Source: Massilia rubra
GTDB lineage: Bacteria; Pseudomonadota; Gammaproteobacteria; Burkholderiales; Burkholderiaceae_D
Assembly: GCF_011682065.1 (NCBI RefSeq)
Contig: NZ_VUYU01000002.1
Location: 186,001-250,000, forward strand
Reading direction: 5' to 3'
Length of the DNA stretch: 64,000 nt
The translations under genes and the position numbers were made by a program. The notes beneath the pieces were generated by a model. That model was not told the origin of the DNA. It saw only the letters and a list, made by a program, of their open reading frames with translations, and made no database searches. Positions 25,113-44,586 of the stretch are shown one piece after another; position 1 is the first letter of the stretch, and each line of letters begins with the position of its first letter.

Positions 25113-25115
25113 GCC

Positions 25116-27501: not shown

Positions 27502-27529
27502 TAGGTGTTGCCGCCGCCACGAAGGTTCC
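27502..27529 (-). promoter_or_regulatory. Hrp box for the sctI-L operon
   Basis: Minus strand GGAACC, 15 bp, ACACCTA, one mismatch to the HrpL consensus, 52 bases before the ATG at 27450. Confidence 0.78.
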
Positions 27530-27564
27530 GCTGGCGCCGTCGGGAAATATATTTCCGTTTCGGG

Positions 27565-27593
27565 CGAACTAAATCGGAACGGGCTGCCACTCA
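27565..27593 (+). promoter_or_regulatory. Hrp-type box for the sctC operon
   Basis: Plus strand CGAACT, 16 bp, CCACTCA. The downstream box is perfect, the upstream one has two mismatches. It is back-to-back with the minus-strand box at 27502-27529 and 58 bases before the ATG at 27652. Confidence 0.55.
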
Positions 27594-27651
27594 CCAGCAT
27601 TGCCGGGCTGTCGCCGCGACCGTTCATCATCCGCCATGAGGAAGAAACAGC

Positions 27652-27885
27652 ATGTCCCACGATAACAATCCGATTACCCGGGCGCTGCGGCGCCTCGAAA
27701 CCCGCTTCGACGACAGCGACCTGCGCATGCGCGATTTCCTGGCCGCCGACGCGGCCGGCGAGAAGCCCGACCCGGACAGCTTCCTGCGCATGCTGGAGCA
27801 GCGTTCGGTGACGCGGCGCGCCATGGAGTCGCAAGCGAAGCTGCACGAAAAGCCGCTCAAGACCGTTCTCAGCGAGGCCAAATAG
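27652..27885 (+). CDS. Small helical protein, candidate needle-related subunit
   Basis: 77 aa, first gene of the sctC operon. It is almost wholly helical, with a PDPD turn in the middle (DSDLRMRDFLAADAAG before it, SFLRMLEQRSVTRRAMES after it). That helix-turn-helix plan resembles needle subunits (SctF) or their SctE partner, and the size suits either. There is no clear sequence match, so the role is open. Its stop lies three bases before the next ATG. Confidence 0.45.
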   Translation: MSHDNNPITRALRRLETRFDDSDLRMRDFLAADAAGEKPDPDSFLRMLEQRSVTRRAMESQAKLHEKPLKTVLSEAK

Positions 27886-27888
27886 ATC

Positions 27889-28308
27889 ATGGACGATCAC
27901 GATCAATTGACCGCCTGGCTGCGCGCGCAGCCGCTCGGGGCACGTGTCGCCATCGACGGCGAATCGGTCTGGCTGCGCCCGGGCGAGGGCGGCGCGGAAC
28001 TGTCGGCCTGCCTGTGGCCCGATCCCAGCGGCGAGCAGGTGCAGGCGGCCCTGCGTCAGGGTTTTGCCGGTGCGCTCGCGTTCGACGCCGGCCTGGGCTT
28101 GTCCGGCGACGGCCTGGTCCTGAGCTGCTGGCTGCCTTCCTGCGCCGGCTGGCGCGATGCCGCGCCCGCGCTGGAACAACTGCTCGACCAGCTGGCCGCC
28201 TGGCGCGCCGCGCTGGCCCCGCCGTCTGCGAAGCCGCGCCTGGCCGCCGGCGGCGCCGCGCGCCACGAACAGCGCATGCGCCAGATGCTCGGCGGAGCGC
28301 GGCCATGA
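27889..28308 (+). CDS. YscB-like chaperone upstream of the secretin
   Basis: 139 aa. A class I chaperone-like layout is visible: helix (LTAWLRAQPL), strands (GARVAIDGESVWLRPG, AELSACLWP), LVLSCWLPS and a long closing helix. YscB-type chaperones bind the gatekeeper and are encoded just before yscC, exactly as here. It overlaps sctC by four bases. Sequence similarity itself is weak; position carries much of the call. Confidence 0.6.
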   Translation: MDDHDQLTAWLRAQPLGARVAIDGESVWLRPGEGGAELSACLWPDPSGEQVQAALRQGFAGALAFDAGLGLSGDGLVLSCWLPSCAGWRDAAPALEQLLDQLAAWRAALAPPSAKPRLAAGGAARHEQRMRQMLGGARP

Positions 28309-30191
28309 TGCGCCTTGCATTACATGCTACGCGGGTGGCGCGCGGCGTGCTGATGGCCGCCTGCCTGGCGCAGGCGGCACCGGCCGCCGCCGTGGCTCCC
28401 GCCAGCTGGAACGAGACAGGTTTCGCCGTCGACGCCAGGGGCTTGCGCCTGGCGCGCGTGCTGGAGCAGTTCGGCGCGGCCTACGGGGTCCAGGTCGATA
28501 GCCGCGTGCCCGACGCGCTGCTGGCGCCGACCCGGATCAAGGCCGCCAGCGGCACCGAGTTCCTCGACCGCCTGGCCGCGAGCGCCGGCTTTCGCTGGTT
28601 CGTCTACAACGAGACTGTCTATATAGTCCCGCGCGGCGAACAGATCTCGGTACGTCTGCAGATCGGCGAAGACGCGGTGCAGGACGCCAAGGCCGCCCTC
28701 ACCGGCGTGGGCCTGTTCGACGCCCGCTTCGGCTGGGGCGAACTGCCCGACGAGGGCGTGATCATCGTCAGCGGCCCGCGCGTCTATGTCGACCTGGTGC
28801 GCTCGCTGCTGCTGCCCGACCGCAAACCGGAAGAGACCCCCGCCAGCGGCAGGCAGGTGATGGTGTTCCGGCTCAAGTACGCCAGCGCAGCCGACCGCAC
28901 CATCACCACGCGCGGCCAGAAGGAGCTGGTGCCCGGCATCAAAAGCATCCTGAGCCGCCTGCTCGACAGCGACCCGGCGCCCAGGTCCGGCGCGCCGTCG
29001 TCCGGCGAATTCGATGTCGCCAGCAGCAAGCCGTCGCGCCGCGGACCGCTCGGCAAGGGAGGCGACACGCCCGCCGAGGCGCCCGAGGACAAACGCGGCG
29101 CCCGCGCGGCCAGCGCCACCAGCGCCACGCGCGCCGAGCGGGTGCGCATCGACGCCGATCCCTCGCTCAACGCCATCATCATCTACGACGATGTCGCCAG
29201 GCGTGCCACCTACCAGTCCCTGATCGCGCAGCTGGACGTGGAACCGCGCCAGGTCGAGATCGAGGCGCTGATCGTCGACATCGACCGCAGCAAATTGAGC
29301 GAACTGGGAGTGGAGTGGGGCGTACGCAGCGGCAGCACCAGCGCCACCATCAACGCCGGCGGCGCCGAGTCGCACGGCATCGAGCTGCCTTTGCCCGGCT
29401 CCACCCTGCTAATCAATAATGCCGGGCGCTTCTACGCACGCCTGAAGGCCATGGAAGGCAGCGGCGACGCGCGCGTGCTGGCCAAGCCGACCGTGCTCAC
29501 GCTCGACAACGTGGCGGCGGTGCTGGACCTGAGCCAGACCGCGTATGTGCCGCTGGTGGGCGAGCGGGTGGCCGACCTGGCCGACATCACCGTCGGCACC
29601 ATGCTGCGGGTGGTGCCGCGCATCGTGCAGGAGGGCGCGTCGCTGCGGGTACGCCTGGAGATCGATATCGAAGACGGCGCCATGGACAAAAACACCGGCA
29701 AGGATGGCGGCAGGAGCAGCGTGACCCGTTCCACCATCAGCAGCCAGGCGATCGTCGATGCCCAGCAGACGCTGATGATCGGCGGCTACCACGCCGAGTC
29801 GGTGTCGCGCCAGAACCAGAAGGTGCCCGTGCTGGGCGACGTGCCGCTGCTCGGCGGCTTGTTCCGCAGTGCCAGCGAAACCCACAGCACGCGCGAGCGC
29901 CTGTTCCTGATCACGCCGCGCATCATGAGCAGCGCCGGCATGCTGGCGGCCGAACAGTCGAAGGCCAACAAGGCGGCGCGACGGCTGGCGGCGGCCGAAC
30001 AGCGGCAGCAGGCGCGCAGCGTCGAGACGCCTGCGCCTGCGCTTGCAGCGCCGGCTGCCGCGCCGGCAGCAGCCGCACCCACGGTCGCCGCAGTTGCGTC
30101 ACCGCTGCGCCGTAGCGCGCTGGCCGATGTCATGTGGCCGAAAAAACCACGTTCGGTGCTGTGCAGACGGCAGGTGCCGCCATGGCGCTGA
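28305..30191 (+). CDS. sctC: T3SS outer-membrane secretin SctC
   Basis: 628 aa from ATG 28305, with a Sec signal ending AAPAAAVAP. N-terminal ring-building domains cover residues 30-180 (VLEQFGAAYGVQVDSRVPDA, GFRWFVYNETVYIVP) and a second N domain near 290-330 (LNAIIIYDDVARRATYQ). The secretin core shows QVEIEALIVDIDRSKLSELG and VPVLGDVPLLGGLFRS near the end. About 60 low-complexity Ala/Pro residues form the C-terminus. It makes the outer-membrane channel of the injectisome. Confidence 0.97.
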   Translation: MMRLALHATRVARGVLMAACLAQAAPAAAVAPASWNETGFAVDARGLRLARVLEQFGAAYGVQVDSRVPDALLAPTRIKAASGTEFLDRLAASAGFRWFVYNETVYIVPRGEQISVRLQIGEDAVQDAKAALTGVGLFDARFGWGELPDEGVIIVSGPRVYVDLVRSLLLPDRKPEETPASGRQVMVFRLKYASAADRTITTRGQKELVPGIKSILSRLLDSDPAPRSGAPSSGEFDVASSKPSRRGPLGKGGDTPAEAPEDKRGARAASATSATRAERVRIDADPSLNAIIIYDDVARRATYQSLIAQLDVEPRQVEIEALIVDIDRSKLSELGVEWGVRSGSTSATINAGGAESHGIELPLPGSTLLINNAGRFYARLKAMEGSGDARVLAKPTVLTLDNVAAVLDLSQTAYVPLVGERVADLADITVGTMLRVVPRIVQEGASLRVRLEIDIEDGAMDKNTGKDGGRSSVTRSTISSQAIVDAQQTLMIGGYHAESVSRQNQKVPVLGDVPLLGGLFRSASETHSTRERLFLITPRIMSSAGMLAAEQSKANKAARRLAAAEQRQQARSVETPAPALAAPAAAPAAAAPTVAAVASPLRRSALADVMWPKKPRSVLCRRQVPPWR

Positions 30192-30634: not shown

Positions 30635-30637
30635 GCG

Positions 30638-31339
30638 TCAGGGTTCCGGCGTGTATTCGAGCCGGTAGCCCTGGCTGTACGAGGTGCGGATGATGACGCG
30701 CCGCTCCGGCCCGAACTGGAGCTTCTTGCGCAGCTTGTAGACGTGCTGCTCGATGGTGCGTCCCGCCACGTCGCTGTCGGCGCTCCAGATCGACGCGCCG
30801 ATGGTCCCGCGCGAAATGAACACCCCTGGCGACGAAAAGAACAGCCAGGCCATGGTGAACTCGCGCGGCGTCAATTCGACCGTCACGCCATCGTAGGCGG
30901 CGCTGGCCGCCTCGCGGTCGAGCGCGAATTTGCCCAGGGCGATGGTGCGGCGCATGCTGTTCGGATGATGGCGCCGGATCACGGCCCGGATCCGCGCGAT
31001 CGCCTCCACCGCCTCGAAATGCGCGCCGATGAAGTCGTCGGCGCCGGCGTTGAGCGCCAGCGCCGCCATCTCGGGCGTGCCCTGCGACAGGGCGATCACC
31101 GGCGTGCTGTTGCCGGTGCGGCAGTTAAGCCAGGAGACGAAATCCTCGCTGTCGTCGCGGTGGTTGCCGATGTCGATCATCAGCAGCGCAAAGCCGCGCC
31201 GGCTCAGCATGCGCGAGAGACTGTTCTCCGTCGCAAAGCGTTCGCAGCCGAAACCGGACTGCTGCAGCAAAGCCTGCAGCCTGGCGAACAGGCTGTCGCT
31301 ACGCACGTAGCAGCCGATGTTCTCGGAATTATTCAGCAT
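30638..31339 (-). CDS. OmpR-type transcriptional regulator with atypical receiver (HrpG-like)
   Basis: 233 aa from ATG 31339. The C-terminal winged-helix domain is clear (VELTPREFTMAWLFFSSPG, TIEQHVYKLRKKL, IRTSYSQGYRLE). The N-terminal half has receiver-like order with LLMIDIG in place of the phosphorylated Asp strand, but lacks the acidic pair after strand 1 and the conserved lysine region reads GADDFIGAHFE. Phosphorylation control is therefore doubtful. Regulators of this type (HrpG) sit above hrp regulons in plant pathogens. It lies between sctC and the pilus operon and probably controls one or both (inference). Confidence 0.72.
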   Translation of the reverse strand: MLNNSENIGCYVRSDSLFARLQALLQQSGFGCERFATENSLSRMLSRRGFALLMIDIGNHRDDSEDFVSWLNCRTGNSTPVIALSQGTPEMAALALNAGADDFIGAHFEAVEAIARIRAVIRRHHPNSMRRTIALGKFALDREAASAAYDGVTVELTPREFTMAWLFFSSPGVFISRGTIGASIWSADSDVAGRTIEQHVYKLRKKLQFGPERRVIIRTSYSQGYRLEYTPEP

Positions 31340-31489: not shown

Positions 31490-31517
31490 GGAACCGCTTC
31501 GATCCCGGCGACACTCA
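31490..31517 (+). promoter_or_regulatory. Hrp box for the type IVb pilus operon
   Basis: Plus strand GGAACC, 15 bp, ACACTCA, one mismatch to the HrpL consensus, 93 bases before the first pil ATG. It ties pilus expression to the T3SS regulon. Confidence 0.75.
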
Positions 31518-31609
31518 TCGTCACTGGAGGCGCGCAAGCTACGCTTTCACGTTGGCGAGGCCGGGTTCATTTTTTCGGGTTCAATTTTTTCATCGGATGC
31601 TTCTGATTG

Positions 31610-32155
31610 ATGCCGCTTATGCTCAAGTCCCTGTTTTCTCCTCCCCGTGCCGGCCTGCTGTTGTGGGTGTGCGCCGGCCTGCCGCTCGCTGCTGCCGCTG
31701 CGCCGGCGCCATTGCCGCAGCCCTTGCTGGTGCCGTCCTACGGCTACTGGATCGACGACGCCGACTGCGTGGAAGAGGCGCCCGCCGTGCGCCCACCGCC
31801 GTCAGTGCTGGCGATGATGGCGCCAGCGCCGGCCGCGCCGCCGGCCCAGATGGCGATGACGCCGCCGGCACCGCCTCCACCTCCGCCTCCGCCTCCGCCG
31901 GCCTGGCAGCTCAAGGCCGCCGACCAGACCCTGAAGACGGCGCTGGCGCGCTGGGCCTCCAGCGAAGGCTGGCAGCTGGTGTGGGAAGCGCCGGTCGACT
32001 ACGCGGTCGAACGCGACACCAGCGTCGGCGGCAGTTTCGAACAGGCGATCGAAGCGGTCGCGCACAGCATGGCGGGCGCCGAAACGCCGCTGCAGGCGAT
32101 TTTCTACAAGAGTAACCGTGTCATCCGCATCGTCGCCAAGGGAGCGCAATCATGA
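31610..32155 (+). CDS. pilL: PilL/TcpQ-domain protein, type IVb pilus
   Basis: 181 aa from ATG 31610 (ATG 31619 possible). A signal peptide ends about residue 28, followed by a Pro/Ala-rich linker with a long proline run and a TcpQ-like C-terminal domain (WQLKAADQTLKTALARWASS, WQLVWEAPVDYAVE). TcpQ-type proteins help place the secretin in the outer membrane. First gene of an operon in the IncI pil order; overlaps pilN by four bases. Confidence 0.75.
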   Translation: MPLMLKSLFSPPRAGLLLWVCAGLPLAAAAAPAPLPQPLLVPSYGYWIDDADCVEEAPAVRPPPSVLAMMAPAPAAPPAQMAMTPPAPPPPPPPPPPAWQLKAADQTLKTALARWASSEGWQLVWEAPVDYAVERDTSVGGSFEQAIEAVAHSMAGAETPLQAIFYKSNRVIRIVAKGAQS

Positions 32156-33837
32156 AGGCAAGCCCGATGACCAAGCCGGTCCTGATCGCCCTGTGCGCCA
32201 GCCTGGCGGCGTGCTCCGACATCGCACAGCGCGACCCGCGCACCTTCGGCGACCCGGGCGACAAGATCGCCGGCATGGCGCGCCAGGTCGGCACGGCCAA
32301 GCCATTGCCGACGCCCGCCGTGGTGCATGCCGAAGGCATCTGGCTCGGCCACAAGGCGATCAAGGTGGCCAGCGCGCCGGTGCTGCCGCCGGTGTTCCGC
32401 GAGCCGGCCAATTTCGACCGCACTGTCTCGTCGCTCGCGGAACTGGCCGAACGCATCACCATGCGCTCGGGGATTCCGACCAAGGTCAGTCCCGGCGCGC
32501 TGGCCGTGGCCAGCGGTGCGCCCGCGCCGTCGGCCGCCGCTGCCATCGCCAGCACGGCGGGCGTGGGCACGGTCAACCCGATCGTGCCGCCGCTGAACCC
32601 CGCACCGGCAAAAAGTGCGACGCCGAAAGCGGAACCGGTGCACATCTCCTACCGCAACGGCAGCTTCCAGAACTTCCTCGACACCGTGGCCGCGCGCTAC
32701 GGCGTCTACTGGAAGTACGCCAACGGCGCCATCCAGTTCTTCCATACCGAAGCGCGTTCGTTCCAGATCAATGCGCTGCCGGGCGACGCCACCTTCAGCG
32801 CCACCGTCAGCAGCGGCGCGACTTCCAGCGGCGGCGTATCTGGCGGCGGCAGCGGTGGCGGCAGCGGCAGTGGCAACAACGGCGTCAGCGCCAGCAATAA
32901 CCAGAACACCGCCGTCAGCTCGCAGCTGTCGGTCTACTCGAACCTGCAAAAATCGATCGGCGCCATGCTCTCCGCATACGGCCAGGTGGTGGCATCGCCG
33001 GCCACCGGCAGCATCACCGTGGTCGATACGCCCGACGCCCTGGAACGCATTACCGCTTTTGTCGAAAGCGAAAACCGGGCCATGGCGCGCCAGATCGCGA
33101 TCAATGTGACGGTGCTGTCGGTCACGCTCAGCGACGCCGACGAATACGGCATCAACTGGAACCTTGTATACAGCAACCTGCTCAACACCTACGGCATCCG
33201 CAACACCATCGCCGGCACGCCCGGCAGCAGCCCGGCGGCATTTTCAGCCGGCGTGCTGGCCTCCTCGAACAGTAAATTTGCCGGCAGTTCGCTGATGATC
33301 CAGGCGCTGTCGCAGCAGGGCAAGGTGCGGCGCCAGACCAGTGCCAGCGTGGTGACCCTGAACAACCAGCCGGTCCCGGTGCAGGTGGCCAAGCAGACCA
33401 GCTACCTCAAGTCGTCGGAAACCACCGTCTCGCCGCTGGCCGGGTCGACCACCTCGCTCACGCCCGGCGTGGTCACCTCGGGCTTTAACATGAGCATCCT
33501 GCCGCACCTGCTCGACGACGGCACGGTGATGCTGCAGTTCTCGACCGATATCTCGGCCCTGCGCCAGATCCGCCGCGTCAACAGCGGCAGCGCCGGCAGC
33601 AGCACCAACACCAGCATCGAGTCGCCCGAACTCGACACCCGCAACTTCCTGCAGCGGGTGTCGATGAAGTCGAACGAGACCCTGATCATCAGCGGTTTCG
33701 AGCAGACCGACGACGACATCGACCGCCAGGGCGTGGGCCATCCATCGAACTTCCTGCTGGGCGGCGCACTGGCGCGCAAGGCCAACAAGGAAGTGATCGT
33801 GATCCTGGTGACGCCGACCACCATGGCCGGCAGTTGA
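32152..33837 (+). CDS. pilN: Type IVb pilus secretin PilN
   Basis: 561 aa. Lipoprotein signal with Cys in LAACSD (residue about 22). An N-terminal domain (GIPTKVSPGALAVASG) and a Gly/Ser-rich linker around residues 220-245 precede the secretin core (NVTVLSVTLSDADEYGINWN, RRQTSASVVTLNNQPVPVQV, NETLIISGFEQTDDD). It forms the outer-membrane pore of the pilus and is distinct from SctC. Confidence 0.93.
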   Translation: MKASPMTKPVLIALCASLAACSDIAQRDPRTFGDPGDKIAGMARQVGTAKPLPTPAVVHAEGIWLGHKAIKVASAPVLPPVFREPANFDRTVSSLAELAERITMRSGIPTKVSPGALAVASGAPAPSAAAAIASTAGVGTVNPIVPPLNPAPAKSATPKAEPVHISYRNGSFQNFLDTVAARYGVYWKYANGAIQFFHTEARSFQINALPGDATFSATVSSGATSSGGVSGGGSGGGSGSGNNGVSASNNQNTAVSSQLSVYSNLQKSIGAMLSAYGQVVASPATGSITVVDTPDALERITAFVESENRAMARQIAINVTVLSVTLSDADEYGINWNLVYSNLLNTYGIRNTIAGTPGSSPAAFSAGVLASSNSKFAGSSLMIQALSQQGKVRRQTSASVVTLNNQPVPVQVAKQTSYLKSSETTVSPLAGSTTSLTPGVVTSGFNMSILPHLLDDGTVMLQFSTDISALRQIRRVNSGSAGSSTNTSIESPELDTRNFLQRVSMKSNETLIISGFEQTDDDIDRQGVGHPSNFLLGGALARKANKEVIVILVTPTTMAGS

Positions 33838-33847
33838 GGCGCGCGCG

Positions 33848-35137
33848 ATGAGTAATCCCGTCATCCAGCTGGGGCGCCACAAGTTCGTCTGCGGGCTGTT
33901 CTGGCAATCGCTGTCGCGCCCGCGCGAGCTGGCGCGCGAGGCGGCCGACCTGGCGCGCAAGATCGATTGCGACCTGGCCGTGCTGCGGCGCGAGTATTCG
34001 ACCGCGCAGGCGGGCTTCGCGCACAGCGGCGCCGGTCCGCGCCAGGCCCTGTATTCGCTGGCTGCTGCGGTGGCCAGCCGCCTGGCGCGCGACGGCGCCC
34101 ACTACGATGGCGAAAATCAGCCGGTGCACAACTGGCTGGCGGCGTTCCGCCTGCCGGACGGCCATTGGGCCTACTTCGCCGTGCGCGACGCGAACTTCCT
34201 GCCCAACGGCGACTTCGCCGGCACGCGCGAGGAAGTGTTCGAGCGCCTGCACGGCGACTATGGCCTCGGTGGCTGGAACCTGGTCATCGGCGACGCCGAA
34301 CTGGAACACTACGGCTTTCACAATTTTCGCGAGCGCAGTATCGAGGAAGTGCTGGGCGACGCGGGGGATGGGCGCATCAAGGTCAGCAAGAGCTGGCTGC
34401 TGCGCCCGACCACGCCGCGCATCGCGCCGCGCCTGCTGGCGGCCGGCGTGGCCGTGTGCGCCTTGCTGGTGCTCGGCGCCGCGTTGGGATGGCGCCAGTA
34501 CCAGGCGCGCCAGCAGGCGCAGCGCGCCGCCGCCGACGCTGCGCTGGCCGCGCGTGCAGGCTTGGCGCCTCCCAAGGCGGCGCTGATGCCGGCGCCGCAT
34601 CCATGGATCAACAGCGCGGCCCCGAGCAGCGTGGCGCGTGCCTGCGTAGCGGGGCTGGGGCAGCTCACGCCCGGCGGCTGGGCCTTGTCCGAATACAGCT
34701 GCGGCGCACCGGAGCAGCGCTTCACCTGGATGCGCCAGGAATCGACCATCGACCTGCTGCTGGCGCAGGTGCCGGACGCCCAGGTCGACATCGGCGGCGA
34801 CACCGCGACCCTGGCGCGCCCGTTCGCGCCCGCTCCCGGCGCCGACGATGTGCTGCTGCCGCGCCAGCCGCTGGTGGCGGGCATCCAGTCGCGCCTGCAG
34901 CTGATGAACCTGGGCCTGCATTTGGCCCTGCGGCCACCGCCGCCGGCGCCGCCGGCGGGTAGCAAACCGGATGGAACCATGCCGCCCGATTGGCACACGT
35001 ATACATATGCGATCGGCCCGGTCGCCGTGTCGCCGCTGGAAGTGGCCGCGATGCTCGACATGCCGGGCATCCGGATCGAAAGAATGCGCTACCGCGCCGG
35101 CATCTGGTCTTTTGAAGGAGTCATTTATGCGAAATAG
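33848..35137 (+). CDS. pilO: Type IVb pilus assembly protein PilO
   Basis: 429 aa. The N-terminal cytoplasmic region has the PilO2 pattern (FVCGLFWQSLSRPRELAREA, HWAYFAVRDANFLPNGDF). A single membrane helix (LLAAGVAVCALLVLGAALGW) lies near residue 205, followed by a periplasmic half. This matches PilO of IncI-type pili, an inner-membrane platform subunit. It overlaps pilP by eleven bases. Confidence 0.88.
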   Translation: MSNPVIQLGRHKFVCGLFWQSLSRPRELAREAADLARKIDCDLAVLRREYSTAQAGFAHSGAGPRQALYSLAAAVASRLARDGAHYDGENQPVHNWLAAFRLPDGHWAYFAVRDANFLPNGDFAGTREEVFERLHGDYGLGGWNLVIGDAELEHYGFHNFRERSIEEVLGDAGDGRIKVSKSWLLRPTTPRIAPRLLAAGVAVCALLVLGAALGWRQYQARQQAQRAAADAALAARAGLAPPKAALMPAPHPWINSAAPSSVARACVAGLGQLTPGGWALSEYSCGAPEQRFTWMRQESTIDLLLAQVPDAQVDIGGDTATLARPFAPAPGADDVLLPRQPLVAGIQSRLQLMNLGLHLALRPPPPAPPAGSKPDGTMPPDWHTYTYAIGPVAVSPLEVAAMLDMPGIRIERMRYRAGIWSFEGVIYAK

Positions 35138-35702
35138 CCTGAGCCTGTTGTTCCTGGTGGCGGTGGCGGCCGGTCCGTCTGCCGCCGCCACCGCTGCCAC
35201 CGCCGCTGCCGCCGTTCCGGTGCCGGCCGCCGCCAGCGCCTCCGACACGCTCACCCGCATCGAGTCCGAGACGTTGGTGCTGAAAGCGCGCGAGCGCCAG
35301 CTTGCGGTAAGGGCGGCAATCGCGCAGCGCCAGAACGAGATCGCCGGACGCCAGGACGAGGCGGCGCGACTGGGCAGCCCGGCGCCGGCGGCCAGCCCGG
35401 TGGTGCAGTCGCTCGAAGGGATCGGCCAGCACCAGTATGCGACCCTGCGCTTCGACAGCGGCGCCGTGGTCGAGGTGCGCGCCGGCGATATGCTGGCCGG
35501 TGGCCTGCGCGTGCTGAGCGTGGAGTCGAATGGCGTGATCGTCGAAACGGCGCGCAAAAAGCGCGTGCGCCTGCCGCTGGCCGGCAACGCGGCCGTATCG
35601 GCTCCCGCACCGGCCCCAGTGCCCGCGTTTGCACCTGCGCCGGCGCGCGCGGCAGTCGCCCTGCCGCCGCTGTTCCCCGGCGCCACCGGGAGCGAGCGAT
35701 GA
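35127..35702 (+). CDS. pilP: Type IVb pilus biogenesis protein PilP
   Basis: 191 aa from ATG 35127, with GAAGGAG at 35114-35120. A signal peptide is followed by a short coiled coil and a C-terminal HQ-domain-like part (FDSGAVVEVRAGDMLAGGLR, VLSVESNGVIVETARKK), typical of periplasmic PilP proteins that bridge platform and secretin. Ala/Pro-rich tail. Confidence 0.82.
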   Translation: MRNSLSLLFLVAVAAGPSAAATAATAAAAVPVPAAASASDTLTRIESETLVLKARERQLAVRAAIAQRQNEIAGRQDEAARLGSPAPAASPVVQSLEGIGQHQYATLRFDSGAVVEVRAGDMLAGGLRVLSVESNGVIVETARKKRVRLPLAGNAAVSAPAPAPVPAFAPAPARAAVALPPLFPGATGSER

Positions 35703-37303
35703 TCCCCTTCGCCAGCTTGCGCGGCACGACGCCGGCCAAGGCCGCGCCGCCGGCAGCGCGCAGCGGTGGCGCGCCACAGGTACTGAGCAGCGCCGGCGAC
35801 TTCGAGGGCAGCGCCGAAGAACGCAAGCTGCTTTGCCTGCTGTCGGACGGGCGCTTGCTGATCGCCCAAGGCCAGGAATCGAATCCGCACGTGCTGTCGT
35901 ACCGCGCGCGCCTGCAGAAGATGGCGCGCCAGTGCACCGTTGAGGTGGTCGACATCGAAACCATCGCCGCCCTGTATAACAATGGCGCGGGCGAGCAGGG
36001 CGGACGCCGCCACGAGCACTCGATGATGCAGGTGACGGCCAAGGAGTTGCTTAACCGCGCCTGCCGCGAACGCGCCTCGGACATCCACATCCGCGTGCGC
36101 CGCTGCAGCACCGAGACCTATTTCCGCATCCATAACGACCTGCTGCGGGTCGGCAGCCAGACCTCGGAATACGGCGAGCGCCTGCTGGCCACCCTGTACG
36201 GCGCCATGACGTCGGTGTCGGACAGCTCGTACAAGCCGACCGAACGCCAGGACGCCAGCATAGCGGACCGCGACAAGCTGCCGCCGCAGCTGTACGGCGT
36301 GCGCATCGCCACCGCGCCCACCAGCGAAGGCACGCTGATGGTGCTGCGGCTCCTGTACAACGACGCCGGCGACACGGTCGACCTGCGTCCGCTCGGCTTC
36401 TCCGAGCTGCATGCGTGCCAGATGCAGCGCCTCAAGGAGCAGCCGACCGGGATGAACATCATCAGCGGCCCGACCGGCTCGGGCAAGTCGACCACCCTGC
36501 AGCGGGTGCTGAGCGGCGCCCTCCAGGAAGCCGGCAACAAGCTGCACGTGCTGACCGTGGAAGACCCGGTCGAGTATCCGATCGACGGCGCGGTGCAGAC
36601 CTCGGTCACCAATGCCGGCAGCGAGGAAGAGCGTTCGCGCCTGTTTTCGGCGGCAATCAGCAACGCCATGCGGCTCGATCCGGACACCATCATGATCGGC
36701 GAAATGCGCGACAAGGCCTCGGCCCAGAGCGCGTTGCGGGCCTCCATGACCGGGCACCAGGTCTGGACCACGGTGCACGCCAACAGCGCCATCGCGATCG
36801 TCGACCGCCTGCTCGACCTGGGGCTGCCGATGAATATGGTGGCCGACCACCTGGTGGTGACCGGCTTGATCAGCCAGCGCCTGGTCAAGCTGCTGTGCCC
36901 CCATTGCAAGGTGAGGCTGGGCGCCGCGCCCGACACGCTGGCCGCGCCGCTGCTGGCGCGCGTGCGCCAGGCTTGCGGGGCCGCCTTCGACCAGGTGTGC
37001 GTGGCGGGACCGGGCTGCCCCGAGTGCCGCGAGCAGGGCACGGCGGGGCGCAGCGTGGTGGCCGAAGTCATCACGCCCGACGCACGCTTTTTCGATCTGG
37101 TCCGCAGCGGCGCCAAGGGGCAGGCACTGGACTACTGGCGGCGCGAGCTGGGCGGCCAGACCCTGCTCGAACACGCGCTGGCCAAGGTGGCCGCCGGCCT
37201 GGTCGATCCGCGCATGGCCGAAAAAGTGGTCGGGCACCTGGCGTTCGAGGCGTCGCGCGCCGAGCGCCACCTGAACGTGGTGGAGGCGCTGCATGCAGGT
37301 TGA
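35699..37303 (+). CDS. pilQ: Type IVb pilus assembly ATPase PilQ (GspE family)
   Basis: 534 aa. Walker A is GPTGSGKST near residue 260, with an Asp box and Walker B (DPDTIMIGEMRD) and a His box (HQVWTTVHANSAIAI). Near the C-terminus a cysteine cluster (CPHCK ... CPEC) marks the zinc-binding module of extension ATPases. It powers pilin assembly. Overlaps pilR by eleven bases. Confidence 0.95.
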   Translation: MIPFASLRGTTPAKAAPPAARSGGAPQVLSSAGDFEGSAEERKLLCLLSDGRLLIAQGQESNPHVLSYRARLQKMARQCTVEVVDIETIAALYNNGAGEQGGRRHEHSMMQVTAKELLNRACRERASDIHIRVRRCSTETYFRIHNDLLRVGSQTSEYGERLLATLYGAMTSVSDSSYKPTERQDASIADRDKLPPQLYGVRIATAPTSEGTLMVLRLLYNDAGDTVDLRPLGFSELHACQMQRLKEQPTGMNIISGPTGSGKSTTLQRVLSGALQEAGNKLHVLTVEDPVEYPIDGAVQTSVTNAGSEEERSRLFSAAISNAMRLDPDTIMIGEMRDKASAQSALRASMTGHQVWTTVHANSAIAIVDRLLDLGLPMNMVADHLVVTGLISQRLVKLLCPHCKVRLGAAPDTLAAPLLARVRQACGAAFDQVCVAGPGCPECREQGTAGRSVVAEVITPDARFFDLVRSGAKGQALDYWRRELGGQTLLEHALAKVAAGLVDPRMAEKVVGHLAFEASRAERHLNVVEALHAG

Positions 37304-38369
37304 CCTGCAGCGCTGGTGGGCGCGTACCCAGTTCGGCGAGGCCGTGCGCCTGCGTGTGTACCGCAAGATCGCGGCGATGCTGGGCAACGGCGTGCCGCTG
37401 CTGAAAATCCTCGACGAGCTGTGGGAGCGCGCCTCCGCCCAGGGACGCAAGCCGAACGAACCGCTCGCCATCGTGCTGGCCGACTGCCGCCGCACGGTGC
37501 AGAACGGGCGCTTCCTGGGCGATGGGCTGGAATGGTGGGTCCCGAGCACCGAACGCATGATCATCCTGGCCGGCGAGCAGTCCGGGCGCCTGGAAGTGAC
37601 CCTGCAGGTGCTGGCCGGCGTGGTCAAGTCGCAAAAGGAAATCAAGCGCGTGATCGTCGGCGGGCTGTCCTATCCGCTGGCCATCCTGGCGATGGTGCTG
37701 GCCTATCTGTATGTGTTCGGGGTGACCGTGGTGCCGCAGTTCGCGCGCATGGTCGACCCGGAAAAATGGCGCGGGTCGGCGCGCTCGCTGTATGTCATGT
37801 CGCAGCTGGTGCAGCAGTGGATGCTGCCGATCGTCGGCGCGCTGCTGGTGGTGCTGGTGGCGATTGCCGTGTCCTTGCCGCGCTGGCGCGGCAACCTGCG
37901 CGTGGTGCTGGACCGCTACGCGCCCTATTCGATCTACCGGCTGCAGGTCGGCAGTGGCTTCCTGATGGCGTTTTCGGCCTTGCAGTTCGCCGGCATCACG
38001 GTCGAAAAGTCGCTCCAGCGCCTCTCGGGCCAAGCCCCGCCGTGGCTGCGCGAACGGCTCGACGGCGCGCTGCTGGGGGTCAAGTCCGGCCTCAATTGCG
38101 GTGAAGCGCTGCGCAACGCCGGCTACGGCTTTCCGTCGCCCGAGGTGGTCGACGACCTGTGCGTGTATGCCGAATACAAGGGCTTTGCCGACGCGCTCAA
38201 GATCCTGGCCGACGAATGGATGGCCGATGGCGTGGAAACGGTGAGCGCCCAGATGAAGGTGCTCAACGGCTTTTCCGTGATTGCGCTGGCCGTGGTGATC
38301 GCCTGGCTGGTGACCGGCTTTTTCGGCATCCAGCAGGAGATCGCCAGCATGACGCGCAGCATGCGCTGA
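37293..38369 (+). CDS. pilR: Type IVb pilus inner-membrane platform protein PilR (GspF family)
   Basis: 358 aa. It has the GspF-type fold, with helices around LSYPLAILAMVLAYLYVFGV, MLPIVGALLVVLVAIAVSL and a last helix (IALAVVIAWLVTGFFG). IAAMLGNGVPLLKIL and LQFAGITVEKSL show the two GspF repeats. It couples the ATPase to the pseudopilus base. About 60 bases separate it from pilS. Confidence 0.93.
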   Translation: MQVDLQRWWARTQFGEAVRLRVYRKIAAMLGNGVPLLKILDELWERASAQGRKPNEPLAIVLADCRRTVQNGRFLGDGLEWWVPSTERMIILAGEQSGRLEVTLQVLAGVVKSQKEIKRVIVGGLSYPLAILAMVLAYLYVFGVTVVPQFARMVDPEKWRGSARSLYVMSQLVQQWMLPIVGALLVVLVAIAVSLPRWRGNLRVVLDRYAPYSIYRLQVGSGFLMAFSALQFAGITVEKSLQRLSGQAPPWLRERLDGALLGVKSGLNCGEALRNAGYGFPSPEVVDDLCVYAEYKGFADALKILADEWMADGVETVSAQMKVLNGFSVIALAVVIAWLVTGFFGIQQEIASMTRSMR

Positions 38370-38429
38370 ACCCACTACCTCATTTCTTAACCTGTAGTTT
38401 TTTCACTTTCCCACCGACTGGAGAACACC

Positions 38430-38954
38430 ATGAAACAAGCCCGCTACCCACGCCGCCAAGCCGGCGCCTCGCTGCTCGAAGCCATCGCCTACCTCGGGAT
38501 CGCCGCCATCGTCATCCTGGGCGCGGTGTCGCTGCTGACCGGCGCCTTCAGCAGCGCCCAATCGAACCAGGCCGGCGAGGAAGTCACCGCCATCCGCACC
38601 GCCGTGCGCAAGCTGTACATGGGGCAGGGCTACGGCACCGGTGCGCTCAATGCGACGCTGAGGACCGCGGGCGCCTTTCCCGGCACGCTGTCGGTCACGG
38701 CCGACGGCACCGCGACCAATGTCTGGGGCGGCAACGTGGTGGTCACCGGCGCCACTGGCAGCTTTACCATCGCCTACCCGGCCCTGCCGCAGGACGTCTG
38801 CCTGGCCACCCTGGTGGCGGCCAGCGGCTGGCAGTCGATCGCCGCGCCGGGCACGGCCTCGATCACGACCTTCCCGATCACGCCGGCCGCCGCCGCCACC
38901 GCCTGCAGCGTGACCGCTGCCGCCGGCAACGCGCTGACCTTCACCTCCAACTGA
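38430..38954 (+). CDS. pilS: Type IVb major pilin PilS
   Basis: 174 aa, GGAG 10 bases before the ATG. A short basic leader ends Arg-Arg-Gln-Ala-Gly, followed by ASLLEAIAYLGIAAIVILGA: a class III signal with cleavage after Gly and Glu at position +5. The body is Ala/Thr/Gly-rich with a Cys pair (VCLATL, TACSV) that could form the C-terminal disulfide loop. No prepilin peptidase gene is present in this window. Confidence 0.92.
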   Translation: MKQARYPRRQAGASLLEAIAYLGIAAIVILGAVSLLTGAFSSAQSNQAGEEVTAIRTAVRKLYMGQGYGTGALNATLRTAGAFPGTLSVTADGTATNVWGGNVVVTGATGSFTIAYPALPQDVCLATLVAASGWQSIAAPGTASITTFPITPAAAATACSVTAAAGNALTFTSN

Positions 38955-38976
38955 ACCCGACCCGATTGACCTTCGT

Positions 38977-39948
38977 ATGCTCGACGCTACCGCAGTCCGC
39001 CAGCTGGTGTTTTCCGACCTTTACCTTGGCCATCCGACCCTGGAGGACCGCTTTTGCGACGTCCCCGGCGCCAGTGCCAATCCGCTGCGCGCGAGCGCCG
39101 CGCTGCGCGGCGACCTCGATCTGCTGATCGATGTCTGCAAGGCGGCGCTGGCCGGGCCGCGCGCGCCGGCGCGCTGCAAGGTGGCGCACGACGGCGTCGA
39201 TTACCACATGACGACCATGCTGACGGCCGGCGGCCAGGTGTTCGTGCTGCGCCGCATCGCCGCCGCCATCCGCTCGCTGGCCGAACTCGGGATGCCGAAT
39301 GCGTTCATCCCGGCGCTGCTGGCGCGCGGCCTGTCCGGCCTGTTCCTGGTGGCCGGCCCGGCCAAGTCGGGCAAGACCAGCACCGCCTGCGCCATGGTCA
39401 AGGAACGGCTGGCGGCGCATGGCGGCGTAGCCGTTACCGGCGAAGCGCTGATCGAACTGCCGCTCGAAGGCAGCTACGGCGACGGCGTCTGCTACCAGAC
39501 CGGCACCGGCGCCGATTCCAGCTTCGCCGAGGCGCTGCGGCGGGTGCTGGGGACCGGCGCGCACATCATCCTGCTCGACGAGATCCGCGACCAGGAAGCC
39601 GCCGTGGCCGCGCTGCGCGCCAGCATCGACGGCTACCTCCTGATCAGCACCATGCGCGCCGACAGCGCGACCCAGGCCATCGGCAAGCTTGAATCGCTGG
39701 CGGCCGAACGCCTCGGCGCCGAACACGCGCGCGCGCTGATGGCCGAAGGCGTGACCGGGGTGCTGTACCAGCAGCTCGGCACCAGCGCCAAGATAACGCT
39801 CAAGGCCGACATGCTGCTGCTGAAAGACGCTCCGTCGGCGCGCAGCCATGTGCGCAACGGCCAGTACGATCTGCTGGCGGGCATCGCCAGGCAGCAGATG
39901 GCGGCCCTGATCGCCTCCAACGCGGCGCATCCTCTGGCGCAGCGCTAG
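38977..39948 (+). CDS. Second, shortened secretion ATPase in the pil operon
   Basis: 323 aa. It belongs to the PilT/GspE ATPases: Walker A-like GPAKSGKTST near residue 120 and Walker B region IILLDEIRD, then a His-less LISTMRADSATQAI. The zinc module and much of the N-terminal domain are absent, and the sensor segments are degenerate compared with PilQ and with the PilT at 44731. It may be a retraction-type or regulatory paralogue, or is losing ATPase function. Confidence 0.72.
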   Translation: MLDATAVRQLVFSDLYLGHPTLEDRFCDVPGASANPLRASAALRGDLDLLIDVCKAALAGPRAPARCKVAHDGVDYHMTTMLTAGGQVFVLRRIAAAIRSLAELGMPNAFIPALLARGLSGLFLVAGPAKSGKTSTACAMVKERLAAHGGVAVTGEALIELPLEGSYGDGVCYQTGTGADSSFAEALRRVLGTGAHIILLDEIRDQEAAVAALRASIDGYLLISTMRADSATQAIGKLESLAAERLGAEHARALMAEGVTGVLYQQLGTSAKITLKADMLLLKDAPSARSHVRNGQYDLLAGIARQQMAALIASNAAHPLAQR

Positions 39949-39950
39949 CC

Positions 39951-40376
39951 ATGTTCAACGCCATGATCGTCGCCGTTCTGCTGGCGCTCACCACCTGGTA
40001 TTGCGCCGGCCAGGGCGACCCCGGGGTGCTGGCGGCGCGCACCGCGCAGCGCGGCCAGGCCAGCGCGATGGCCCAGTACCGCCAGGCGGTGGTGGGGTAC
40101 TTTACCGCCCATCCGGAGCAGTTCCAGGCCGCCCCCGTGAACCGGGCCGGCTTTGCCAACTACCGCCTCGCCGACGGCACTATTTTGGTGTATGCGCTGG
40201 CGCCGCAGCCGGGGCTGACCGCCGAATTGCTGGCACTGTCGCAGCGCTCGCACATGGTCGGACGCTTCAGCGACGGCTTTTTCTGGCCGGCGCTCGGCGC
40301 CGCGCCGAGTTCCATCGCCACCCCGGCGCTGGCGATTCCGGACGGCGGCCCGGTGTGGCTGGCCGCCGCCAACTGA
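39951..40376 (+). CDS. pilM: PilM-like type IVb pilus protein
   Basis: 141 aa. A single N-terminal membrane helix (AMIVAVLLALTTWYC) and a small periplasmic domain (VVGYFTAHPEQF, ILVYALAPQPGLTAELLALS). Size and plan fit PilM of IncI-type pili. It has been moved downstream of pilS relative to the plasmid order. Confidence 0.72.
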   Translation: MFNAMIVAVLLALTTWYCAGQGDPGVLAARTAQRGQASAMAQYRQAVVGYFTAHPEQFQAAPVNRAGFANYRLADGTILVYALAPQPGLTAELLALSQRSHMVGRFSDGFFWPALGAAPSSIATPALAIPDGGPVWLAAAN

Positions 40377-40384
40377 GGACAAGC

Positions 40385-41698
40385 ATGCACTACAAACAGC
40401 ACGGCATCGCCATGATCGAAATCCTCGGCGCGCTCCTGATCGCCGCGATGCTGGTGGCGGGCCTGGCGTCGATGATCGACACCGGTCTCGAAGACGCCAA
40501 GGCGCAGCGCAGCGCGCAATACCAGTCGGCCATGACGGCAGCCGCCAGCACCTACCTGGCCGACCAGTACGGCGCGCTGGCGCAGCCGGCCAAGGTCGGC
40601 CAGACCCTGGTCATCACGCCGGACATGCTGCGCGCGGCCGGCATGCTGCCGCCCGGGATGGCCGCGACCAACCCCTACGGCCAGGGCGCCTGCCTGCTGG
40701 TGCGCCCGCGCGTCAAGTCGGCGGCGGCCCCAGGCACCATCGTGCTCGATGCGCTGTTGGTGAACGAAGGCGCGCCGATCCCGGACCGGGTGCTGGCCTT
40801 TGCCGCCGCCAGCGCCGGCGCGGGCTTCATCAGCAGCCGCGAGCCGGGGCGGGCCCGCAGCGCGGCCGGCGCCTGGGCGCTCGACGCGACCACCGCGCCA
40901 ACCCTGGCCAGCTTCATCGGCGCCAGTTGCAGCGGCACGGCGGCCGGCGGCGGCAGCCTGGTGTCGGCCCTGCTATTCGACGGCGCCGGCCAGTCGGCCG
41001 ATTTTTTGTACCGCAACAAGGTGCCGGGCATGCCCGAGCTGAACCAGATGAACGCGCCGCTCGGCATGGGCGCGGCGGCGGTGGTCACGCTCGACGCGCC
41101 GTGTAGCGGCGCCGCCATCGCGGTCGACGCCGCGCGCAACCTGATGCACTGCAGCGGCGAGAACCGCTGGACCAGGGTCGCCAGCACCTCGTCCTGGAAG
41201 GAGCCGGTGGCCGGCTACGCCGACCTGGCGCTGCAGGCGGACAGCAAGGATGGCGACGTGCGCCTGGTCGCTACGCTCGGCCTGGCCTTCAGCTACCACC
41301 AGGCCAACGGCGCATGGCGGCCGCTGGCGGCCGACCAGGACGGCAACCTGGCGATTGCGGGCAGCCTGACGGCCGGCGCCGACATCAAGGCCGGGCGCGA
41401 CCTCGTCGCCGCCAGGAACGGCGAGATCAAGGGCGACCTGGACGTGTACGACCACGTGCACGCGTACACCATCACCGCCGACGACTACATCTGGGCGGCG
41501 ACCTATTCGATCGGCAGCCACTACGGGCCGGGGTGGGGATGCAACAAGTGGCTGGAAGGCGCCAACCCGCCGGTGCGCGTCAATATCATCGGCACCATCG
41601 TGCTCGATTCGGACTCGCCGCCGCTGCCGCTGATCTGCACCGGCACCGACCCGGACAATGCCGTGTGGCGCTACATGAATGGCTCGCTGACGCGATGA
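40385..41698 (+). CDS. pilV: PilV-type minor pilin/tip adhesin
   Basis: 437 aa. The leader is only seven residues, ending in Gly, followed by IAMIEILGALLIAAMLVAGL with Glu at +5, so it is a prepilin. The shufflon-type N-terminal domain is recognisable, followed by a variable C-terminal domain containing beta-helix-like repeats (ADIKAGRDLVAARNGEIKGD). In IncI plasmids the C-terminus is switched by a recombinase (Rci). No recombinase or inverted sfx repeats are seen, so this adhesin is fixed. Confidence 0.88.
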   Translation: MHYKQHGIAMIEILGALLIAAMLVAGLASMIDTGLEDAKAQRSAQYQSAMTAAASTYLADQYGALAQPAKVGQTLVITPDMLRAAGMLPPGMAATNPYGQGACLLVRPRVKSAAAPGTIVLDALLVNEGAPIPDRVLAFAAASAGAGFISSREPGRARSAAGAWALDATTAPTLASFIGASCSGTAAGGGSLVSALLFDGAGQSADFLYRNKVPGMPELNQMNAPLGMGAAAVVTLDAPCSGAAIAVDAARNLMHCSGENRWTRVASTSSWKEPVAGYADLALQADSKDGDVRLVATLGLAFSYHQANGAWRPLAADQDGNLAIAGSLTAGADIKAGRDLVAARNGEIKGDLDVYDHVHAYTITADDYIWAATYSIGSHYGPGWGCNKWLEGANPPVRVNIIGTIVLDSDSPPLPLICTGTDPDNAVWRYMNGSLTR

Positions 41699-42545: not shown

Positions 42546-42666
42546 GGGGACTCCGTGCGGATAGGGTGGGTAAGGTGGGAATGAAGCAGGGGAAGCTGCG
42601 CAGGCATCACTGCGCGGGCAACCAAGGTACGGGACCGCATCGGCAGCCCCGCACCGGGAACGCGCT

Positions 42667-42928: not shown

Positions 42929-42975
42929 GGTAATTCCTTTCAAAGTGTCGGTTGCAACTCCGGTTGGAGTACGTA

Positions 42976-43003
42976 TGAGTGGCGCGCGGGCGGCCATGGT
43001 TCC
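42976..43003 (-). promoter_or_regulatory. Perfect Hrp box
   Basis: Minus strand GGAACC, 15 bp, CCACTCA: a full match to the HrpL consensus. It lies upstream of the 34-residue peptide gene. Confidence 0.85.
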
Positions 43004-43050
43004 ATCGGCGCGCGCCAATGCCGCATTGTCGATCGGGGCCGGAGCGCGGC

Positions 43051-43464
43051 CTATGACACCGAGAGCAGCCAGGCGCCGGCCTTGTCCCTGGCGTCCATGA
43101 TCGCGTCGAGCAGGCTGGTCTCGTCGGCCAGCTGCCCGATGCCGATGTTGTGCAGGATGATGTAACGCCCTTCGCTGGCGTCCCACAGCCATTCGCCGCC
43201 GGGATAGCCGGGGCTGGCCAATGGCGGGGCCGCCGCTGCCGCCAGCGTACGGCGCGGCAAGTATACCGACACGCACAGGAAAGGCTGCGCCGCGTCGGCC
43301 GCCAGCGAGGTCAGCGTGACGATCTCGTCGAACTGCAGCTCCAGCACCGGTGGGCCGCCGGTGCTCTGCTGGCCTGTCAGCTCGACCAGCTCGCGCAGGC
43401 AGCGCAGGACGGCAGCGGCCGAGCCACCGAACTCCTCTGGTGGGACATAGTCGTGTTGCTGCAT
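43051..43464 (-). CDS. Small T3SS chaperone-like protein
   Basis: 137 aa, AAGG before ATG 43464. The order of elements (helix AAAVLRCLRELVELT, strands VLELQFDEIVTLTSL and FLCVSVYLPRRTLA, WLWDASEGRYIILHNIGIG, closing helix) suits a class I chaperone fold. The gene sits among small Hrp-regulated genes. No sequence family is firmly recognised; it could also be an unrelated acidic protein. Confidence 0.42.
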   Translation of the reverse strand: MQQHDYVPPEEFGGSAAAVLRCLRELVELTGQQSTGGPPVLELQFDEIVTLTSLAADAAQPFLCVSVYLPRRTLAAAAAPPLASPGYPGGEWLWDASEGRYIILHNIGIGQLADETSLLDAIMDARDKAGAWLLSVS

Positions 43465-44070
43465 AGAACCTTATAGGAAAAGTAAGCGGTCGGAGCAATG
43501 CAAAATGGGTAAGTGCATGCTACGCGTTCCGGTGCGCAACGCCAAGATCAAACAATGCGCACGAGCCTGCCGCGATCCGCCCCAGGTGTTCGATCATACT
43601 GATTTTCCGCGCCGGCTTCAGTGGTCCAAAAGTGTTGCGCCGTTCCCTGTCGTTCGGGTGTTGTATGACCATCGATTTCATGCCAGGCCGCGCGGGTCGG
43701 GCAGGTGCGGCCGGTGGAACCGGGGCTGGCGGCGCTGCCACGCAGAGTCCGGCTTCTCCACGTCCCCGGAGCCCCCCCATCAAGCAATCAGAGGGGGCGA
43801 AGGAATGTCGTTCGTTTAGTTTCCAGTAGCAGAGCAGGGGGGGCAGGCGCCCGGGTCGATCCGGCCCGGCGCTGCGCCGGGCTGCGAGCGCAGAAAACGC
43901 GCGGACATAGAGGGAAGAAGGGAGGAAGGGAAGACGGGAAGAAGGGAAGACGGGAAGAAGGGGGCGAACGCGGGGAGCGGGAGAACCTCGGGAGCGAGCG
44001 CAGAGAGCGGGACCGTTACGCGCCGCTGCCGGGCCGAAAAAGACAGCGCCGCCCGATGGCGGCGCCGCAT
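43465..44070. other. 600-base non-coding stretch with a purine-rich tract
   Basis: No supported gene. Bases about 43909-43980 are almost pure A/G on the plus strand, built of GGGAAGAA/GGGAAGAC/GGAGGAA-type units, which could form triplex or other unusual DNA. The rest is GC-rich and featureless. Confidence 0.6.
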
Positions 44071-44253
44071 CTACTGCTGCTCGTTGACCTGTTTGGCCAT
44101 GGTACTGAAGATCTGCAGCTTGGACAGGGCCTGGCCCTGCGCCGCCGCCCAGCGGATCAAGTCGGCGTCGCCGCCCGCGGCGCTGGACCATTCGCCGGCG
44201 CCGCTGCGGGGCGGTGCCGGCAAATGCTGGCTACGGTTGTTCAGATAGGTCAT
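44071..44253 (-). CDS. 60-residue T3SS-associated protein
   Basis: ATG 44253 with a strong AGGAGG six bases upstream. A polar, Ser/Gly-rich N-terminus is followed by a helix (LIRWAAAQGQALSKLQIFST, then MAKQVNEQQ). Size and helix pattern are within the range of needle or tip-associated subunits, but no family match is seen. It follows the 49-residue gene by 88 bases and shares its Hrp promoter. Confidence 0.55.
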   Translation of the reverse strand: MTYLNNRSQHLPAPPRSGAGEWSSAAGGDADLIRWAAAQGQALSKLQIFSTMAKQVNEQQ

Positions 44254-44341
44254 CGCTGCCTCCTGTCGTGGTATGTCTGTTGAGGATGGGATGCGGAAAA
44301 AGCCGCGCGCCGCAGCACGCCGGAGCGCGGCCATGCGTGCA

Positions 44342-44491
44342 TCAGATGGCGTTCACCGCAGCGGTGTTCGCCTTCTTCTGGATCGCCGCCGCCATCTCGG
44401 CTGCGGTCAGCGCCTCGTTGGCCGCCATACCTGCTGCGATGTTTGCCTGACCTGCTACCGTACTGAGTGCCGTTGTAGCGATACCAAACAT
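44342..44491 (-). CDS. 49-residue helical T3SS-associated protein
   Basis: ATG 44491 with AAGGAG 6-11 bases upstream. Almost all Ala, Ile, Thr, Asn and Glu: an N-terminal hydrophobic helix (TALSTVAGQANIAAGMAANE) and a second helix with AEMAAAIQKKAN. First gene under the Hrp box at 44558-44586. It resembles in composition small pilin or needle-like subunits and might be an extracellular filament component; this is inference only. Confidence 0.55.
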   Translation of the reverse strand: MFGIATTALSTVAGQANIAAGMAANEALTAAEMAAAIQKKANTAAVNAI

Positions 44492-44557
44492 GATGTTCTC
44501 CTTAAATGGTTGATTGAAAGTGCCGCCTTGGCCATCGTCTGCCGCAGCGGTCCAACA

Positions 44558-44586
44558 TGAGTAGCTGCGCGCAGGGCATTGGTTCC
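44558..44586 (-). promoter_or_regulatory. Hrp box for the 49/60-residue gene pair
   Basis: Minus strand GGAACC, 16 bp, CTACTCA, one mismatch to consensus, 67 bases before ATG 44491. Confidence 0.74.

Follow-up and report, generated by a model that had tools for sequence, protein, structure and literature searches.

Does a bacterium that carries both a type IVb pilus and a type III secretion system (T3SS) switch on holding and injecting together? The question is raised by the window analysed here, a stretch of 64,000 nucleotides from Massilia rubra (positions 186001-250000 of contig C41, 0.85% of the 7.57 Mb host genome), in which a type IVb pilus (pil) operon lies between two groups of hrp-type injectisome genes. 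It is still unsettled how bacteria time attachment relative to injection; HrpL is commonly seen as the switch for the T3SS and its effectors. An initial annotation of this DNA had proposed that pilus and injectisome share one HrpL-type regulon. From the sites described below, we consider it likely, with a probability of about 0.78, that the HrpL-type regulon of this genome includes the pil operon, on which such control probably acts alongside a second input. The features on which this reading rests are the following.

31490..31518, + strand: predicted hrp-type promoter of the pil operon, GGAACC-N16-CACTCAT, from pattern searches, with a leader of ~90 bp to pilL
31610..41698, + strand: type IVb pilus operon with pilL (TcpQ), the pilN secretin gene, pilO, pilP, the pilQ ATPase gene, pilR, the pilS pilin gene, a second T2SSE-type ATPase gene and pilV (Shufflon_N)
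20521..30191, strand not assigned: injectisome genes sctV, sctL (by position), sctJ, sctI and sctC, from family searches
47466..53720, - strand: injectisome genes sctT, sctR, sctQ, sctN and sctD, from family searches
54034..54579, + strand: extracytoplasmic function (ECF) sigma factor 1, HrpL-type
54797..55345, + strand: ECF sigma factor 2, HrpL-type, 79% identical to sigma factor 1

Gene identities were assigned by family searches, the Pfam scan covering 40 open reading frames (ORFs) of the window. TcpQ, PAP_PilO, PilP, PilS/bundlin and Shufflon_N, together with a secretin, T2SSE-type ATPases and T2SSF, place the pilus in the type IVb PilL-V class, and adjacent ORFs of the operon overlap or lie no more than ~61 bp apart. 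The families FHIPEP, YscJ, T3SS_basalb_I, secretin, FliP, export family 1, FliN, T3SS ATPase and YscD, corresponding to the joint presence of SctC, SctI, SctJ, SctN, SctQ, SctR, SctT, SctV and SctD family genes, identify an hrp-type T3SS. The pil box agrees with GGAACC-N15-CCACTCA at 12 of 13 positions, the first -10 base being A instead of C, and stands in the coding orientation, as in promoters of the HrpL regulon. A simple scan upstream of pil found no sigma-70-like site. Both sigma factors contain regions 2 and 4 (Sigma70_r2, 6.3e-18 and 3.7e-16; Sigma70_r4_2, 9.6e-9 and 9e-7), and among the best 25 of 82 and 25 of 83 NCBIfam families for the two proteins, the superfamily TIGR02937 alone passes its cutoff. 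In a tree of 28 sigma factors the pair groups with sigma factors of family genomes and apart from four other ECF sigma factors of its own genome; deep forks are weak, outgroup branches are long, and the tie to the T3SS-linked sigma factors of Brenneria and Marinomonas (33-36% identity) is poorly resolved. By sequence the two appear to be HrpL-type, a term that implies no proven orthology with HrpL.

Nine such boxes had been reported for the window, eight of them with a perfect GGAACC. All nine are at the reported places. A pattern search with GGAACC-N16/17-BACYYA recovered the eight with a perfect GGAACC, the sctD site at 53752, which had been called weak, being one of these; the ninth, at 27565, has CGAACT instead. 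The accompanying consensus, GGAACC-N15/16-CCACNNA, fared less well: it is matched completely at 42976 and at no other of the nine sites, and the -10 part is better described as YACYYA(T). Besides the pil box and two further sites listed at the end of the text, the boxes are as follows.

18407..18435, + strand: hrp-type box upstream of the gene named sctW in the initial annotation (ATG at 18704; no Pfam match)
27502..27529, - strand: hrp-type box upstream of a 339 aa ORF (start at 27450), itself upstream of sctI-J-L
27565..27594, + strand: weak hrp-type box, CGAACT-N17-CACTCAC, upstream of sctC
42976..43003, - strand: hrp-type box, exact GGAACC-N15-CCACTCA, upstream of a 34 aa ORF (start at 42928)
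44558..44586, - strand: hrp-type box upstream of a group of small ORFs (a 49 aa ORF from 44491 and a 60 aa ORF ending at 44071)
53752..53779, - strand: hrp-type box upstream of sctD (ATG at 53720)

At the place equivalent to the weak sctC box, loci L032 and L033 carry the variants CGAACC and TGAACC. Genome-wide, the relaxed pattern GGAACC-N16/17-BACYYA has 13 matches, eight of which are window sites. This count is partly circular because the pattern was written to cover the eight sites, so that a strict pattern is the fairer test. GGAACCN{15,17}CACTCA has three matches in the genome and one in the reversed control; two of the three, the pil box and the site at 42976, lie in the window. Random hits throughout the genome, named in the initial annotation as the outcome that would speak against the regulon, were thus not what the pattern searches returned, even though the relaxed pattern is no commoner than its reversed control.

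The third strict match (C23:98774, locus L095) was rejected as a promoter, as by eye it sits in a GGGAACC...GGTTCCC inverted repeat. This repeat, GGGAACCTAAGTT...AACTTGGGTTCCC, resembles the -35 half of the box. The pattern GGAACC-N14-17-CCAC was uninformative for genome searches (66 matches, reversed control 107); nine of the 66 start with GGAACCCAAG and may represent the same inverted repeat.

Conservation of the pil box was evaluated with a published consensus, GGAACC-N15/16-CCACTCA, which had not been fitted to the loci in question. An SctC search yielded 64 loci, each reaching at most 10 kb per side, in which pil genes were sought by tblastn with the window genes and counted by hand. They share the locus with SctC in 17 of the 21 loci from Massilia, Duganella, Rugamonas, Herbaspirillum and other Burkholderiales-type genomes (in two of the 17, only pilV falls within the stretch); among the other 43 loci, the pil-type tblastn matches were ATPase matches in L060 only. 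Between sctC and pilL, with bounds set by hand in 16 loci including the window, 13 regions contain a box that agrees with the consensus at 11 or 12 of its 13 positions; shuffling each locus separately gives p values of 0.0025 to 0.015. ORFs were examined in seven of these loci: L041, L042 and L044 have no same-strand gene-like ORF from the box to pilL, the leader measuring ~330-530 bp, and in L039 one ORF overlaps both sctC and the box. When four Massilia-type intergenic regions were aligned, the box halves were invariant (13/13), while the spacer was conserved at 8/16 and the remainder at 136/235 positions.

The association extends to the family level. Searches of 392 family genomes at E 0.001 found PilO (PF06864) in 60, SctI (PF17001) in 59 and both in 43 vs 9 expected, a co-occurrence whose significance is overstated by the Fisher value because the genomes are related. 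Of the 63 PilO places, the window's included, 37 have SctI no more than 60 kb away. In the window's own genus, five sampled genomes have PilO and SctI, and the other 12 listed have neither. Outside the window, the sequences around 60 of 62 PilO places were retrieved, the two omitted falling under the family cutoff. In 35 of 36 T3SS-linked and 21 of 24 unlinked regions, the published consensus was then scored over the 1.5 kb preceding pilL (or pilN); the dropped regions lacked either sufficient upstream sequence or a pilL match. Of the 35 linked operons, 11 have a box of at least 12/13 (0.05 in shuffles; 1 on the opposite strand), as do none of the 21 unlinked ones (shuffles 0.03); at 11/13 or better, the linked count is 15 of 35 (shuffles 0.57; opposite strand 2). 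Massilia-type genomes of the window's genus account for four of the 11. The unlinked set is an imperfect control, with an SctC-like match 3.4-3.6 kb from PilO in G360 and G357 and SctI on another contig in G313, G105, G086, G064 and G088. As named loci and family genomes overlap, the 16-locus and family-wide tests are not independent samples.

The sigma factor largely follows the pilus. With sigma factor 2 as query and a threshold of 1e-25, 57 of the 59 other PilO genomes were searched (G064 and G086 left out) and 46 gave a match; among the matches listed, identities range from 98 to 38% and outside the genus are mostly 50-65%. Relative to the window pair, sigma factors of those family genomes that carry this pilus mostly fall in this 50-65% range (one at 46%), and a second group lies at 38-44%. 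The 11 genomes without a match comprise eight of the nine whose sole PilO match is weak, plus G046, G105 and G137. Two copies occur also in the four other module-bearing genomes of the genus (G170, G192, G111, G148), and outside it G100, G162, G033 and G224 have two matches. In loci L177, L178 and L179 (G146, G375 and G323, respectively), a sigma factor gene is located ~8 kb from pilO, its product sharing 42-44% identity with the window pair; a weaker box, GGAACT...TACTTAA, stands ~1.1-1.4 kb before pilL, and SctI and SctJ were not found in these genomes.

A number of observations weigh against HrpL-type control of pil. At the family level, 20 of the 35 linked operons have no box within 1.5 kb even at 11/13, one of the 15 linked matches at this level (G129) falls inside a secretin gene, and 3 of 21 unlinked operons have a box of at least 11/13 vs 0.53 expected. 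L038, L040 and L086 (3 of 16) lack a box by the published consensus in the sctC-pilL region, and G046, G105 and G137 combine a strong PilO match with no sigma match. All these genomes are related and hence not independent. In the host genome, the relaxed pattern is rarer than its reversed control (13 vs 20) and not enriched as such, so that only the clustering of 8 of its 13 matches in 0.85% of the genome is unusual. The pil leader, moreover, holds two weak terminator-like matches at 31552-31578. In Pseudomonas syringae, according to the available part of PMC4149516, an hrp-like site preceding a type IV pilus gene was not significantly enriched in chromatin immunoprecipitation with quantitative PCR, and quantitative reverse transcription PCR revealed no HrpL dependence; the site was judged equivocal, while its promoter fusion was induced 10.9-fold. 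A second conserved element, whose half-site is commoner before pil than the hrp box, involves three further features.

30638..31339, - strand: OmpR-family regulator gene, divergent from pil (Trans_reg_C, 2.2e-17; HrpG-like by position only)
44622..44664, + strand: second conserved element, CTGAGATTTGTTGAGAA...TATCAT, upstream of pilT2
44731..45825, + strand: PilT/PilU-type ATPase gene, pilT2 (TIGR01420; start inferred)

The match of pilT2 to TIGR01420 (2.8e-88; scored on a longer ORF) reaches 296.4 bits, below the family cutoff of 319.1. In relatives the half-site T(G/T)TTGAGA, frequently as TGAGNTTTGTTGAGAA or GGTCATATTTGTTGAGAA, lies in the 1 kb preceding pilL in 24 of 35 linked operons, compared with 0.42 in mononucleotide shuffles and one on the opposite strand, and in 2 of 20 unlinked regions; regions were dropped for the reasons given for the box test. 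The count is partly circular because the half-site was discovered in these same loci. Both elements are present in nine of the 35 linked regions, the half-site only in 15, the hrp box (11/13) only in six and neither in five. TTGAGA followed by TAYNAT 18-21 nt on precedes pil in 10 of 36 linked and 0 of 24 unlinked loci, and never occurs on the opposite strand. GGTCATATTTKTTGAGAA is present in 10 of 10 aligned Herbaspirillum-type leaders, including a locus without an hrp box, and related loci have TGAGNTTTGTTGAGAA-like forms; Herbaspirillum sp. RV1423 has lost the hrp box and retained the half-site. The arrangement of a 10-bp repeat ahead of a -10-like TAYCAT resembles that of OmpR-family sites. 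Because the repeat adjoins a -10-like hexamer and an OmpR-type gene is nearby, the element is perhaps a response-regulator site to which the linked OmpR-type protein binds. pilT2 is present in all ten additional regions examined downstream of pil, with an OmpR-like gene divergent beside it in seven, 4.7-8.7 kb away in two and not found in one.

The main control of pil might instead come from the OmpR-type regulator acting at the TTGAGA-containing element, or from another promoter, the hrp box being a minor or lineage-specific addition. The 15 linked operons with the half-site and no 11/13 box, the constant company of pilT2 and the OmpR-like layout speak for this explanation, which we nevertheless consider rather unlikely. 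In the window, the full element occurs once, before pilT2, and is absent upstream of pil; it contains the sole exact TGAGNTTTGTTGAGAA of the genome (six with two mismatches, reversed control three). In four genomes (G170, G148, G192, G111) the hrp box is present and the half-site absent, and the half-site count carries the circularity noted above. The proposal of a shared HrpL-type regulon is retained in part: one element precedes injectisome genes, the 'effector' genes and pil, its copy before pil is conserved in part of the relatives, and the cluster contains two ECF sigma factors of a type that is associated with T3SSs elsewhere. With 20 of 35 linked operons boxless and 24 of 35 bearing a different half-site, the regulon is not simply one element.

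Alternatively, the pil-T3SS neighbourhood may be a genomic island that moves as a block, with the pilus as a passenger and the hrp box without joint function. Transposase genes of the ISL3 and IS66 type at the edge of the cluster (10290-12775) agree with mobility, and the available part of PMC3093359 proposes an hrp/hrc-pilus island beside a tRNA gene in Herbaspirillum seropedicae. The linkage occurs, however, in several gene orders, the order around the module varies, the box halves are invariant while half of the spacer changes, and G146, G375 and G323 retain a related sigma factor close to pilO with SctI and SctJ not found. We consider this explanation unlikely. That the boxes are chance matches in GC-rich sequence is scarcely credible: bare GGAACC is not enriched in the window (31 vs 25.2 expected) and the relaxed pattern, designed around these sites, does not outnumber its reversed control, but the strict pattern is almost unique in the genome and the published consensus at 12/13 lies ~200-fold above shuffles.

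If the HrpL-type regulon includes pil, one or both ECF sigma factors (54034-55345) would bind and initiate transcription at GGAACC-N16-CACTCAT (31490-31518), ~90 bp before pilL, and the same factor or factors would initiate at the promoters of the injectisome and of the genes initially called effectors. The pilus would therefore be produced when the injectisome is produced. The most likely role of a retractile pilus with a PilV-type protein and a PilT-type ATPase would be to draw cells to a eukaryotic partner for the needle to act. In relatives, the T3SS, the sigma factor, pil, PilT2 and the OmpR-type regulator recur together as a genomic module. There the second conserved site, perhaps bound by the OmpR-type regulator, would provide pil with another input; in the window this site lies before pilT2. 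Tentatively, and with more doubt than for the regulon itself, we propose that type IVb pilus, OmpR-type regulator, PilT-type motor, HrpL-type sigma factor and hrp-type injectisome constitute a dual-controlled, co-inherited contact-and-injection module in many genomes of the family, in which the pairing of sigma factor and pilus can outlive the injectisome (G146, G375, G323). One kind of promoter on pil and T3SS, with the two kept together in many relatives, points to simultaneous activation of holding and injecting. The single 'attachment-plus-injection machine' of the initial annotation is a functional guess and unproven, the DNA providing shared elements and co-inheritance. If the module proposal is true, HrpL-type sigma factors of the family would be regulators of a contact program and not solely of the T3SS, and shared control would help to explain the frequent co-occurrence of pilus and T3SS. 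The question of timing becomes directly testable with a complete type IVb pilus operon that bears a conserved HrpL-type promoter and, as a second conserved element, a potential binding site of an OmpR-type regulator.

Several known systems resemble the window in part. In enteropathogenic Escherichia coli (EPEC), the locus of enterocyte effacement (LEE) that encodes the T3SS is chromosomal. Like the window, EPEC combines a type IVb pilus, the bundle-forming pilus (bfp), and a T3SS with linked regulators; unlike the window, it has an AraC-type activator, PerA, acting on bfp, with bfp and per on the EPEC adherence factor (EAF) plasmid. We know of no ECF promoter shared by bfp and the LEE. The R64/IncI thin pilus has PilL/TcpQ-, PilN-, PilO-, PilP-, PilQ-, PilR-, PilS- and PilV-type genes in the same order as here. 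The description of the pilus as IncI-like thus applies to its core genes; no integrase-type recombinase or conjugation gene was found among the 40 Pfam-scanned ORFs, a dedicated search not having been made.

Closest in regulation is the HrpL regulon of group I hrp systems (Pseudomonas syringae, Erwinia, Herbaspirillum), which likewise couples an ECF sigma factor to an hrp-type T3SS and has GGAAC-N16/17-CCACNNA-like promoters before T3SS genes, according to the available parts of PMC4149516 and PMC3487950. The window differs in having a box on a whole type IVb pilus operon, a duplicated sigma gene and a looser -10 (YACYYAT). For H. seropedicae SmR1, the available part of PMC3093359 (2011) documents physical linkage of this kind of pilus (hrp/hrc-pilNOP...SVT) to a T3SS with HrpL and HrpG; unlike in the window, the hrp boxes named there precede hrp/hrc operons, not pil. 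Six HrpL operons are listed for H. rubrisubalbicans in the corresponding part of PMC3487950, pil not being among them, and in P. syringae surface attachment partly requires HrpL (PMC10062345, in part); the accessible parts of PMC3695564 and PMC4440368 add nothing further on this question. The pil-hrp linkage as such was thus already in print in PMC3093359; among the best-ranked openly licensed literature, no report was found of a type IVb pilus operon preceded by an hrp box.

Elsewhere in the window, Rfam at gathering thresholds gave zero matches over 10000-58000. The SctW, SctL, SctO and 'effector' proteins had no Pfam match at 0.01, and their labels follow position or the initial annotation. 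The closest named T3SS locus is that of Massilia mucilaginosa, with an SctC identity of 92%. The remaining two boxes precede the genes labelled as effectors.

15802..15830, - strand: hrp-type box upstream of the ORF 14417-15754 ('effector' in the initial annotation; no Pfam match)
18272..18300, - strand: hrp-type box upstream of the gene 16791-18071 ('effector' in the initial annotation; no Pfam match)

These two promoters are alike, with variant -10 parts (GACCTAATACC and GACCTACTACC, respectively), and so are their leaders; the two genes with their upstream regions look like a duplicated cassette.

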